Assembly: GCF_030123245.1 (NCBI RefSeq)
Contig: NZ_CP126101.1
Span: 1,052,501 to 1,116,500, forward strand
DNA from: Lysinibacillus pakistanensis
Lineage (GTDB): Bacteria; Bacillota; Bacilli; Bacillales_A; Planococcaceae
Reading direction: 5' to 3'
Length of the DNA stretch: 64,000 nucleotides
Position 1 is the stretch's first letter. The number at the start of each line of letters is the position of its first letter. Under the pieces are notes generated by a model. It was not told where the DNA came from. It saw only the letters and a program-made list of their open reading frames with translations, and made no database searches. This document shows positions 47,730 to 51,501 of the stretch, in pieces. A program made the translations under genes and the position numbers.

Positions 47730-48851
47730 ATGAAAGCTTTATTCCGTATTCTTATGGCATGTGCTGCAATAGCATTAATCGGCTTTATGTTTTTTAATAC
47801 ACCACGTGAAAATGAGCCACTTGAAGGACCGAATGCGAATTCTAATATTATACCAAAAACAGAATTAAAGCAGCCAGAAGTTGGAGCAATGACAAGGCCA
47901 GAAACTGGATTATCGACATTCATTGGTCAAGGTGTACAAGCAGTTGTGAAGCAATACGGAGAGCCAGCACGAAAGGAACCATCGTCCTTTGGATATGATT
48001 GGTGGGTCTATAATACGAGTGCCGCTACATTTTTTATGGTAGGTGTCCAAAATAATATAGTTACGCAAGTTTACATAGCCGGAGAAGATTTAGACGCCTA
48101 TCCTTTTAAAGTTGGACAAAAACGTGATGAGATTTATCGAATGACAATTATTGATTATGAAGTAGCGGCAAATGTTGATGATAATATTTTTGTTTTTTCA
48201 ATGAGTGAAGAGGATATGCAGACTCGTTTACTTGTGAAATTCGATGGACTTTTTGCACAGCTTTATATAGATAGAGAAACTAGTGAGCTACAGGGTATAC
48301 GCTTCACTAATAGCGAAACACTTGTTCTTCATCAACCATATGAAATGACTTATCAAGGTGAGCTTGTTATACCTACACCTCCGTCTTCTTTTTTACAGCA
48401 GGAAATCAATGAAGCAAATGCTGAACAGCTTGACGATTTACTGAATGTAACTAGGGTACATCATAATCTACTTCCACTACAAGTTGATGTAACACTAGAA
48501 GAAGCAGCTAAAATGCATAGTGAGGATATGAAAGTTCAAAACTTTATTGGGCATGAATCACCTACAAATGGGGATTTAAAAAAGAGATTAGAAACACAAG
48601 GGATTGAATATAGTGAGGCAAATGAGAATCTAGCGACGGCTTATTTTGATGCTATAGAGGCCATGCACGGTTGGCTCAATTCTGCTGAGCATCGAAAAGT
48701 TATTTTGAATGAAAAATATGCAACAGTTGGCTCCGGTGTCTTTTTAAATTATTATACACAAATTTTTATTGAGCCTTCCTCACAAAAGATGGATAGTGAA
48801 AATATTGACTCAGAAGAACCTGTAGAGACTATCGATGAATCAACACAATAA
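47730..48851 (+). CDS. ylbC: CAP-domain protein (YlbC-like)
   Basis: 373 residues. N-terminal membrane anchor or signal (residues 4-22), a CAP-associated N-terminal domain (~65-205, GQGVQAVVKQYGEPARKEPS), and a C-terminal CAP/SCP-PR1 domain (~235-350, with RVHHNLLPLQVD, HSEDM, GHESPTNGDLKKR and GWLNSAEHRK). Such proteins are extracellular and in Bacillus of unknown role. AAAAGGAG precedes ATG 47730. The Asp/Glu-rich tail is likely disordered. It lies between cta genes and ylbF as ylbC does in B. subtilis. Confidence 0.88.
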   Translation: MKALFRILMACAAIALIGFMFFNTPRENEPLEGPNANSNIIPKTELKQPEVGAMTRPETGLSTFIGQGVQAVVKQYGEPARKEPSSFGYDWWVYNTSAATFFMVGVQNNIVTQVYIAGEDLDAYPFKVGQKRDEIYRMTIIDYEVAANVDDNIFVFSMSEEDMQTRLLVKFDGLFAQLYIDRETSELQGIRFTNSETLVLHQPYEMTYQGELVIPTPPSSFLQQEINEANAEQLDDLLNVTRVHHNLLPLQVDVTLEEAAKMHSEDMKVQNFIGHESPTNGDLKKRLETQGIEYSEANENLATAYFDAIEAMHGWLNSAEHRKVILNEKYATVGSGVFLNYYTQIFIEPSSQKMDSENIDSEEPVETIDESTQ

Positions 48852-48863
48852 AATAGTATCTGT

Positions 48864-48908
48864 AACTGAAGATTAACTTGGCCAGCCGAGTTGAACTTCA
48901 GTTTTTTC
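48864..48908 (+). terminator. Terminator of ylbC
   Basis: 8-bp stem AACTGAAG / CTTCAGTT (48864-48871, 48896-48903) with inner AACT/GAGTT-type pairing, followed by TTTTC. Confidence 0.82.
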
Positions 48909-49010
48909 ATTTTCTAAACGATCTGTTGAGAGTAAAGCCTCTACCTACATTTTTCGTCACACCGTTACAGACGCCGTCATATGATAGAGAACTGAAAGGG
49001 GGAATGAGGC

Positions 49011-50486
49011 ATGCAATTAGCTGAGCTTTTAAAGGATTGGCCATGTAGTGTGACTGGTGGGTCTATTCGAACTATTGTTACAGGTGTTGAGGACTATGCA
49101 CAGGCTGTAAAACCAGGAGATATTTTTATAGTAAGAAAGGGCAAGAAAACGTCTGGTAGTCGCTTTGTAAAAGAGGCATTGGCTCGTGGGGCTGTAGCCA
49201 TTGTTTCAGAGGAAAGTATCTCACTACCAATTACTGATCAAAATATACCTTTTGTTTGGGTTCCAAATACAGCCTTATTTTTATCGTATGCAAGTGCAAA
49301 ACTTGCGGCCTTTCCAGCAGAAGCATTGACGGTAATAGCCATAACTGGGACAAATGGAAAAACAACAGTGAGTCATTTTGTAAGCCAATTGCTAAGAGCT
49401 TTACATAAAAATGTAGCTGTTATTGGTACTGTTGGATTTTTTATAAATGGTCAAAAACAACAAACTATATATGAGCAATTAACGACATTGCAGGCTAAGG
49501 AATTGCATCCGATTTTAAAGCAATGTGCGCGAAATGGTGTTACACATGTTGTTTTAGAGGCTTCATCAATGGGTTTACAGCAGCATCGATTAGATCATTG
49601 TGATATTGATTGTGGTGTCTTTTTAAATTTATCAGAGGACCATTTAGAGGATCATGGAGGGCTTGAGGCATATAAGCGAGCGAAAAAGAGATTGGCGGAT
49701 TTATCTAAAAAGCTAGTGTTAAATGGAGATGATAATTTCTGTCGTTCTGTTGGTATTTATGATAAGAAAAAATCCTGCTCATTTGGCTTTGACAATCACA
49801 ATGACTTACATATCCAAATTGTCAGTGAATCCATTGGCAAAACGGTACTCTGTCTACAAACATCATCAAGTGAGCATATCGTAGAAATTCCCTTCATTGG
49901 AAAATATCATGTGCAAAATGCTGTAGCTGCGTTGATGGCTATATGGCGCTTAGGTTTTTCAATTGAGGAGATAGCCGAGCATATGTGGTCATTAAGGCTC
50001 CCAGAAGGCAGACTTGAGAAAATCGATAATGCATTTGGCATTGATGTGTATGTGGATTATGCGCATACTGCAGAGGCATTACAGGCTGTTTTACAGACAT
50101 TTGATCGATCGAGGACACTTTATCTAGTATTTAGCTGTGGAGGAAATCGGGATAAGGCAAAACGTTTTGCGATGGGTGCTGTAGCCAGTAAGTATGCAGA
50201 TATTATTTTTTTAACAACTGATAATCCACGTGATGAGGATCCAATCCTAATTAATGAAAGTATCATAGCAGGTTTTACGGAACAGCAATATTATGAAATT
50301 TATTTAGATCGCAAGGTTGCAATTCATAAGGCATTAGAAAAAGCTGAAAAAGGTGATATTGTCCTTGTTGCCGGAAAAGGGCATGAACAAACTCAACAAA
50401 TAAAAAATGAAAAATTCCCTTTTTCCGATCAACAATGTGTCCGTGATTATTTTCTAAATCTTATGCCTGAGAGCGGCGTTGAATGA
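49011..50486 (+). CDS. murE: Mur ligase of the MurE family, DAP-type motif
   Basis: 491 residues. Domain order as in MurE: N-terminal UDP-binding domain (1-95), ATP-binding ligase domain with ITGTNGKTT (~113-121), carbamylated-lysine segment LEAYKRAKKR, and C-terminal domain with DNPR (residues 404-407) and AGKGHE. DNPR is the motif that selects meso-diaminopimelate; L-lysine enzymes differ there. It adds the third amino acid to UDP-MurNAc-dipeptide. The segment that normally reads TTPES is LTTLQ here, so it is divergent. It lies outside any division/cell-wall cluster. GAAAGGGGG precedes ATG 49011. Overlaps the thioesterase gene tail-to-tail by 26 bases. Confidence 0.88.
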   Translation: MQLAELLKDWPCSVTGGSIRTIVTGVEDYAQAVKPGDIFIVRKGKKTSGSRFVKEALARGAVAIVSEESISLPITDQNIPFVWVPNTALFLSYASAKLAAFPAEALTVIAITGTNGKTTVSHFVSQLLRALHKNVAVIGTVGFFINGQKQQTIYEQLTTLQAKELHPILKQCARNGVTHVVLEASSMGLQQHRLDHCDIDCGVFLNLSEDHLEDHGGLEAYKRAKKRLADLSKKLVLNGDDNFCRSVGIYDKKKSCSFGFDNHNDLHIQIVSESIGKTVLCLQTSSSEHIVEIPFIGKYHVQNAVAALMAIWRLGFSIEEIAEHMWSLRLPEGRLEKIDNAFGIDVYVDYAHTAEALQAVLQTFDRSRTLYLVFSCGGNRDKAKRFAMGAVASKYADIIFLTTDNPRDEDPILINESIIAGFTEQQYYEIYLDRKVAIHKALEKAEKGDIVLVAGKGHEQTQQIKNEKFPFSDQQCVRDYFLNLMPESGVE

Positions 50487-50967
50487 CAAAAAATGATCCA
50501 GTTGCAATAGCGAGCTTACGTCCAGTTTCATCCTCGATATCACATTCCATTACAAGTGTTTGACGCCCTTTATGTACAAAGCGTCCACGTGCAATTAGCT
50601 CTGTATTTGTAGTTGTAGCAATATAAGAGACATTCATATTTGTTGTGACCACATTAAAGCCTTCCGGTACAGAACGAGAAGCCAATCCTCCCATCGCTGC
50701 ATCTGCAATTGTAGCAATAATTCCTCCATGTGGGACCTTAATCGTATTATGGATAACTGGTGTAATTGGGATTCGAACCTCACTAATTTCTGGCTCAAAT
50801 TTACCCACCATATGCAGGGCAGCATTGATATATCGACGATGTACCCCGTGTTGTTTTGCACGAAGCCCTGATAATAAATGCAATAAAACCTCTTCATCTT
50901 CAGCAGTGCTTTCTTGTAAAATATTTGCTAGTAATTCTTCGATTTGTTCTTTTGATGATGTAGCCAA
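50461..50967 (-). CDS. PaaI-type hotdog thioesterase
   Basis: 168 residues with the hotdog fold signature HGGIIATIADAAMGGLASR and the strand GRFVHKGRQTLVMECDIEDETGRKLA. Members hydrolyse acyl-CoA thioesters, often aromatic. TTG 50967 has GAAGGAG 8 bases upstream; the longer frame to 50997 contains that site. Substrate unknown. Its 3' end overlaps murE by 26 bases on the opposite strand. Confidence 0.86.
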   Translation of the reverse strand: MATSSKEQIEELLANILQESTAEDEEVLLHLLSGLRAKQHGVHRRYINAALHMVGKFEPEISEVRIPITPVIHNTIKVPHGGIIATIADAAMGGLASRSVPEGFNVVTTNMNVSYIATTTNTELIARGRFVHKGRQTLVMECDIEDETGRKLAIATGSFFVIQRRSQA

Positions 50968-51054
50968 TATAAAAACTCCTTCATGTAATAATATCAATAA
51001 TGTAAAATTACCACAAAATCTGTTATGATGGGTAAGAGATTGGGGGAATTAACT

Positions 51055-51501
51055 ATGATGATGACCTCTGACTGGGTAATCATATTGGATGAGGCCGATG
51101 CGCTTTGTGAGATGATCCTTTCCTCTGAGCCTGCGAAAATGCTGCAACAAGCTTATGACGCTGTTTATAGCGATGTTCAGTTAATCGAAGCTATACACAC
51201 GTTTAATCGCATGAAAGAGCAGTACGAAGATGTACAACGTTTCGGAAAATATCATCCGGACTATCATACAATTATGAAATCGATTCGTCAGCAAAAGCGC
51301 GCACTCGATCTAAATGAAAAGGTTTCAGCCTTAAAAATAGCTGAAAATGATTTTCAAGATTTGCTCGACGAGATAAGCCTACTTATAGGAAAAACAGTAT
51401 CAGAAGCAGTAAAGGTGCCTGTAAGTAATCCTTTCTTCGCATCTGGTTCTTCATGTGCTGGAGGCTGTGGTTCAGGCGGATCTTGTTCGTGCTCTGCATA
51501 A
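51055..51501 (+). CDS. ylbF: YlbF/RicF, regulator of RNase Y activity
   Basis: 148 residues from ATG 51055 (GGGGG 8 bases upstream). All-helical YlbF domain (residues ~5-115) followed by a Ser/Gly/Cys-rich tail with Cys134, Cys138, Cys144 and Cys146. In B. subtilis YlbF forms the Ric/Y-complex with YmcA and YaaT, which carries iron-sulfur clusters and directs RNase Y, affecting competence, biofilm and sporulation. The cysteine tail is kept here. In B. subtilis ylbG follows directly; here 10.8 kb of other genes intervene. Confidence 0.9.
   Translation: MMMTSDWVIILDEADALCEMILSSEPAKMLQQAYDAVYSDVQLIEAIHTFNRMKEQYEDVQRFGKYHPDYHTIMKSIRQQKRALDLNEKVSALKIAENDFQDLLDEISLLIGKTVSEAVKVPVSNPFFASGSSCAGGCGSGGSCSCSA

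Follow-up and report, generated by a model that had tools for sequence, protein, structure and literature searches.

A diaminopimelate (DAP) ligase activity specific to sporulation and located in the mother cell was reportedly described in Bacillus sphaericus by Linnett and Tipper in the 1970s. Early work reportedly found DAP in the cortex of this bacterium. Within the literature searched, with most subscription papers outside its scope, this switch from lysine to DAP had an enzyme activity but no gene assigned to it; given such limited coverage, we make no claim that a gene assignment does not exist. The walls of Lysinibacillus contain lysine and aspartate, according to PMC6971209. Here we analyze murE2, a gene at 49011..50486 (+) in a stretch of 64,000 nucleotides of the Lysinibacillus pakistanensis genome (positions 1,052,501 to 1,116,500 of contig NZ_CP126101.1; hereafter, the window), which we put forward as a named candidate for this role. 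We estimate with a probability of about 0.82 that murE2 encodes a mother-cell meso-DAP ligase for cortex precursors that is reserved for sporulation, with a second, prfC-linked MurE of the lysine type serving growth. In the best reading, murE2 would encode the enzyme responsible for the classical B. sphaericus activity: the two share the genus group, the predicted reaction and, reportedly for B. sphaericus, the mother cell, with the B. sphaericus system reported as an enzyme activity only. The substrate, timing and cortex role of the murE2 product are predicted from sequence.

Other described relatives include the DAP-adding MurE encoded in the division and cell wall (dcw) cluster of other Bacilli (20 outgroup genomes in this analysis), which belongs to the same fold family and has the same DNPR and GKGHE motifs, and the L-lysine MurE of Staphylococcus (4c12) which, like the prfC-linked MurE of the family analyzed here (Planococcaceae), is homologous to murE2 and works at the same point of the pathway. 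The murE2 gene differs from the dcw murE in its position between ylbC and ylbF, its placement in a separate clade, its own mother-cell-type promoter and its coexistence with a lysine-type MurE. Unlike the lysine-adding enzymes, which read DDPR or DNPA, murE2 reads DNPR. In spore-formers with a DAP-type MurE in the dcw cluster, one MurE would serve both growth and the cortex.

The reading frame of murE2 is intact and full length, with an ATG start, and codes for 491 amino acids (aa) comprising all three Mur ligase domains (PF01225, PF08245 and PF02875 in the Pfam scan); the TIGR01085 murE profile scores it at 438.5 bits, with a cut-off of 257.3. The product carries the P-loop TGTNGKT; K225 (codon 49683..49685, +), at the site where Mur ligases have a carbamylated lysine; DNPR at residues 404-407 (50220..50231, +); and AGKGHE at residues 454-459 (50370..50387, +). 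The claim of the original prediction, made from the bare sequence, that the gene encodes a full Mur ligase with the latter two motifs is thus borne out. In an alignment of 29 murE2 homologues, the P-loop, the pair Thr158-Thr159 (codons 49482..49487, +), Lys225 and GKGHE are all invariant, as are D, N and R of DNPR, where P may be replaced with A, C or S. The closest named relatives are Lysinibacillus proteins, with 93% identity. The LTTLQ segment that includes the threonine pair, singled out as divergent in the same prediction, is indeed so, but the difference is minor, with the variation confined to the residues after the two threonines; 7d27, a solved chain named DAP ligase, reads TTLDALQ at this position. 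Because both threonines are invariant, LTTLQ was set aside as a sign of a new substrate.

In the MurE tree, murE2 forms a separate clade (support 100/99) on a long branch, apart from the dcw and prfC-type MurEs; with three clades and no outgroup, a tree of this kind cannot settle the origin of murE2. This long branch, along with the residues after Thr158-Thr159 that are unlike those of common MurEs, would fit a Mur-like ligase that acts on another spore compound and is not a peptidoglycan precursor enzyme. Such a function seems scarcely plausible, given that the score of murE2 is far over the murE cut-off and that the P-loop, the threonine pair, Lys225 and the DAP-contact residues show no variation among the 29 rows.

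The Mur ligase middle domain is present in ten genes of the source genome (5.25 Mb, one contig), which by our reading are murC, murD, murF, two folC, three clustered MurF-like genes and two genes of the MurE type. The original prediction would have failed in a genome with no other murE, and it supposed such a gene in the dcw cluster. A second MurE-type gene does exist, with a different motif, but it is located upstream of and beside prfC (963470-964948 on the source contig, G000:C1). Its product is 33% identical to murE2 and reads DDPR where murE2 reads DNPR. The best solved relative of this protein is the L-lysine ligase 4c12, which we take to be the MurE of S. aureus (482.7 bits; next, 301.9 bits); in the alignment, 4bub, named LD-lysine ligase in the PDB, likewise reads DDPR. 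The prfC gene lies in the same stretch as the lysine-type MurE in 13 of the 15 family loci, including that of the source genome, at distances of up to ~2.4 kb. An outgroup MurE with DNPA also adjoins prfC (L319 1417-2922 (-), with the prfC match at 3-1169), so that the pairing of a lysine-type murE with prfC extends beyond the family. The dcw cluster of the source genome begins ~25 kb downstream of the window gene (mraZ, G000:C1:1128017), in agreement with the earlier placement of murE2 outside the cell-wall cluster, and contains spoVD followed by mraY, with no murE between them. Across 23 dcw loci representing all 19 genera sampled, no MurE match was detected in the 1.5 kb before mraY, which are filled by spoVD, pbpB or remnants. 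A relocation of the dcw murE was considered in view of these loci and rejected, as murE2 is not nested in the dcw clade.

PMC3829189 describes how DAP is held in DAP-specific MurEs: its free carboxyl by the Asn and Arg of the motif, and its amino group by the Asp together with a Glu. None of the corresponding murE2 residues (D404, N405, R407, E459) varies across the 29 aligned rows. Among the 18 murE2 loci, the motif is DNPR in 15, DNAR in two and DNCR in one. All 20 outgroup MurEs encoded within ~1.5 kb upstream of mraY combine DNPR with GKGHE, and the lysine-type rows of the family read DDPR in 14 of 14 cases (the GKG motif listed for L098 and L112 in the motif table stems from a frame upstream of the start). 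The murE2 product probably adds meso-DAP. The genome encodes a meso-DAP dehydrogenase (263.7 bits, cut-off 30), and the genome profile search for DAP epimerase gave two matches below the cut-off of 34.7 (29.1 and 21.4), which agrees with a statement in PMC6382763 that B. sphaericus has the dehydrogenase pathway only.

To follow murE2 across the family, 250 genomes were searched with the 29-row murE2 profile and for SpoIVA and the prfC-type MurE, with the counts taken from the result tables. The gene was found in 183 genomes, namely, 182 in 12 genera and one, G020 of genus g2, with a diverged open copy. SpoIVA is present in all 183, with a weak match in one (G099). Neither SpoIVA nor murE2 matches were detected in 64 genomes of six genera (g7, 3; g8, 46; g9, 2; g10, 8; g13, 2; g16, 3). 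The remaining three genomes all belong to genus g2: G001 lacks SpoIVA and retains a murE2 remnant of 114 aa, G038 combines a weak SpoIVA match with short murE2 fragments, and G054, with its murE2 site outside the examined set, has a weak SpoIVA match. The 182 include twenty genomes of genus g3 in which SpoIVA is accompanied by a weak murE2 score; these were rejected as exceptions, the matches in 20 of 20 being merely split within one frame; a broken gene in G020 was likewise rejected in favor of an open, diverged copy of 436 aa that is closest to the murE2 of genus g5.

The order YlbC, murE2, YlbF is conserved in all 17 other loci examined from genera with SpoIVA, two of which (L100 and L106) have extra genes between murE2 and YlbF. 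At all 10 loci examined in SpoIVA-negative genomes (10 of the 64 genomes, covering all six genera), murE2 is gone, with YlbC and YlbF remaining near each other. In the dcw loci of such genomes, spoVD is missing from its place, the only one searched, in seven of seven cases, and murE2 and spoVD share the same state in each of 23 genomes (14 with both genes, 9 with both lost or reduced to remnants). Mapped onto a tree of five concatenated proteins, the joint loss requires six changes, or five if genus g2 is counted once. All six independent pairs point in the same direction (p 0.031), as do all five that remain when G001 is left out (p 0.0625); under the alternative coding of G020 as lost, 4.7 of 5 pairs on average do so (p 0.0625-0.125). 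Thus, murE2 was lost at least five times together with spoVD, a case of a basic wall enzyme disappearing along with the cortex machinery.

This pattern could also arise if murE2 served growth as a general-purpose or stress-related paralogue, its link to sporulation resulting from shared ancestry or genome reduction. The SpoIVA-negative genomes tend to be smaller, and murE2 may be a main MurE in genus g5, because the prfC-type enzyme is missing there. Nevertheless, we regard a growth paralogue as very unlikely: at least five separate losses coincide with the loss of spoVD, the loss of murE2 leaves its neighbors YlbC and YlbF where they were, and a promoter of the mother-cell type is located upstream of the gene.

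This promoter is conserved. The sigma-K consensus of B. subtilis consists of KCACM and GCATANNNTA (PMC3416734), with a gap of 14-16 between the elements (PMC517825). Upstream of murE2, the -35-like element TCACA (48957..48961, +) fits KCACM, the -10-like element TCATATGATA (48977..48986, +) fits GCATANNNTA save for the first base, and AAAGGGGG (48995..49002, +) is a probable ribosome-binding site. The arrangement TCACA-N15-TCATATGATA matches 11 of the 12 informative positions of the consensus, a fit attained by none of 100 shuffles. Among 13 upstream regions from the genus of the window, the fit is 11/12 in 12 and 10/12 in one, and bases -53 to -24 agree with the window at 92%, compared to 42-46% further upstream; in other genera, the fit is weaker. 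Of 49 murE2 upstream regions from ten genera, 46 contain the -10 core CATANNNTA within 150 nt, against 3.2 in shuffles; the 49 sequences are related and do not count as independent, and in a few (L197, L207, L215) the match lies elsewhere in the 150 nt. Of 58 regions taken, eight (L102, L108, L109, L110, L209, L210, L212 and L213) were dropped as their start could not be placed by pattern, which leaves genus g5 outside the count, and L113 was excluded for a misplaced start. At 15-100 nt, CATANNNTA precedes a single one of the 56 window open reading frames (ORFs), murE2 itself, and 4 of 146 over all sampled stretches of the genome. The murE2 upstream region contains four sigma-70-like matches, fewer than the shuffles (mean 8.3). 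Control by a sporulation sigma factor, which the original prediction had left to be looked for, is represented by a predicted sigma-K-type promoter; the sigma-E reading was rejected in the window, where it does no better than shuffles (p 0.73), and is ambiguous in other genera. The phyletic pattern, the decay of murE2 in place, its co-loss with spoVD and the mother-cell-type promoter agree in linking murE2 to sporulation, and the original proposal of a candidate sporulation DAP ligase is supported.

Several points weigh against this assignment. SpoIVA is a stand-in for the ability to sporulate. A sigma-70-like match (9/12) overlaps the promoter site, and the -35 element fits sigma-K well only in the genus of the window and in part of the others, so that sigma-E may apply outside this genus, where the element is weaker. 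Genus g5 has murE2 (38-41% identity) but no prfC-type MurE; hence, the division of labor must differ in that genus. In 3 of 18 murE2 rows, Ala or Cys replaces the Pro of the motif. The NCBIfam DAP-ligase model NF001126, with a cut-off of 373, scores murE2 at 439.3 bits and the prfC-linked lysine-type MurE at 526.4 bits, and because both MurEs of the genome pass, this model does not separate them. Moreover, an Arg introduced into the S. aureus MurE gave no DAP activity and lysine was still used, as stated in PMC3829189; therefore, DNPR alone is no proof of DAP use.

The latter experiment indicates that motifs do not fix specificity, and would accommodate a sporulation-specific murE2 whose product uses L-lysine, or both lysine and DAP, and does no more than raise the supply of precursors in the mother cell; the lysine-type family rows, too, have Arg in their DDPR motif. 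We consider this unlikely. Asn405 of murE2 is matched by Asp in the lysine-type rows, and DN-x-R with GKGHE is common to the DAP-type dcw MurEs. Furthermore, the genome search found just two MurE-type genes; were both to encode lysine enzymes, no ligase would be left for the DAP reported in the cortex.

Genera g2 and g5 present additional variation. In genus g2, murE2 ranges from a diverged open copy to fragments (L164 3797-5107 (-), L165 6229-6573 (+), L167 4041-4390 (-)), paralleling the condition of spoVD and SpoIVA, which may be read as a loss of sporulation in progress. As in genus g5, the prfC-type MurE was not found in genus g2 or in one fragmented assembly, G184. Both genera encode divergent MurE-like proteins, of ~520 aa (L169, L170, L171, L173, L343) and of ~480-500 aa (L115, L116, L117, L172, L174); at a guess, their substrate might be a different diamino acid, for example, ornithine.

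For the mother-cell DAP ligase, we propose the following mechanism. During growth, the lysine-type MurE would supply the wall precursor. In the sporulating mother cell, the sigma-K-type promoter would switch on murE2, the product of which would add meso-DAP provided by the DAP dehydrogenase pathway, and the common later enzymes (MurF and MraY) would hand the DAP precursor to SpoVD and the cortex machinery. With a lysine enzyme for growth and murE2 in the mother cell, one cell would thus build two chemically different peptidoglycans. Besides the candidate gene, the analysis names the MurE proposed to serve growth, a promoter and a prediction for the whole family. The spore-formers of the family are likely to keep a cortex-precursor module at a fixed site, in which a DAP-type MurE is under a mother-cell promoter and, in six genera, is accompanied by a kinase-only aspartokinase that would supply the synthesis of DAP and dipicolinate without feedback control, with two chemically different peptidoglycans made per cell and the module lost at least five times with spoVD.

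The aspartokinase-like ORF (237-275 aa) lies back to back with murE2 in 12 of the 17 other loci (among them L098 4110-4922 (-), L109 7589-8332 (+) and L108 5525-6268 (-), with nine further loci), in genera g3, g4, g5, g6, g12 and g17, as well as beside the diverged g2 copy (L164 5179-5850 (+)). It is not found at the murE2 site in the source genome or in five other loci. For three of the 12 ORFs compared to NCBIfam, the best match is the aspartate kinase PRK08210, presumably the DapG type of B. subtilis, over the first ~246 of 405 positions, and owing to this partial coverage, the ORFs score below its cut-off. An aspartokinase consisting of the kinase domain only is a possible feedback-free supplier for DAP and dipicolinate.

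At the murE2 site in the window, the domain scan and locus comparison identify the conserved neighbors as a YlbC-like CAP-domain protein upstream (47730..48851, +) and a YlbF-family protein downstream (51025..51501, +). The original prediction had murE2 alone between these two genes; both neighbors are confirmed, but an ORF of the thioesterase superfamily (50461..50997, -; domain scan) intervenes before ylbF, overlapping the last bases of murE2 on the opposite strand. A terminator-like hairpin is located behind ylbC (48873..48894, +), such matches being no more common than expected by chance. In a broad-pattern scan of named genomes, a single locus out of 80 stood out, L018 of Sporosarcina highlanderae (E 4e-121; next, 1e-82). 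Elsewhere in the source genome, a cluster at L014 6850-13337 (G000:C1 ~2098850-2105340) comprises two MurF-like proteins, an ATP-grasp-like ORF and a 723-aa protein whose C-terminal half resembles MurF. Two scanned proteins of this cluster are below the murF cut-off, and the first of the single MurF-like genes has CATATACTA at -32.
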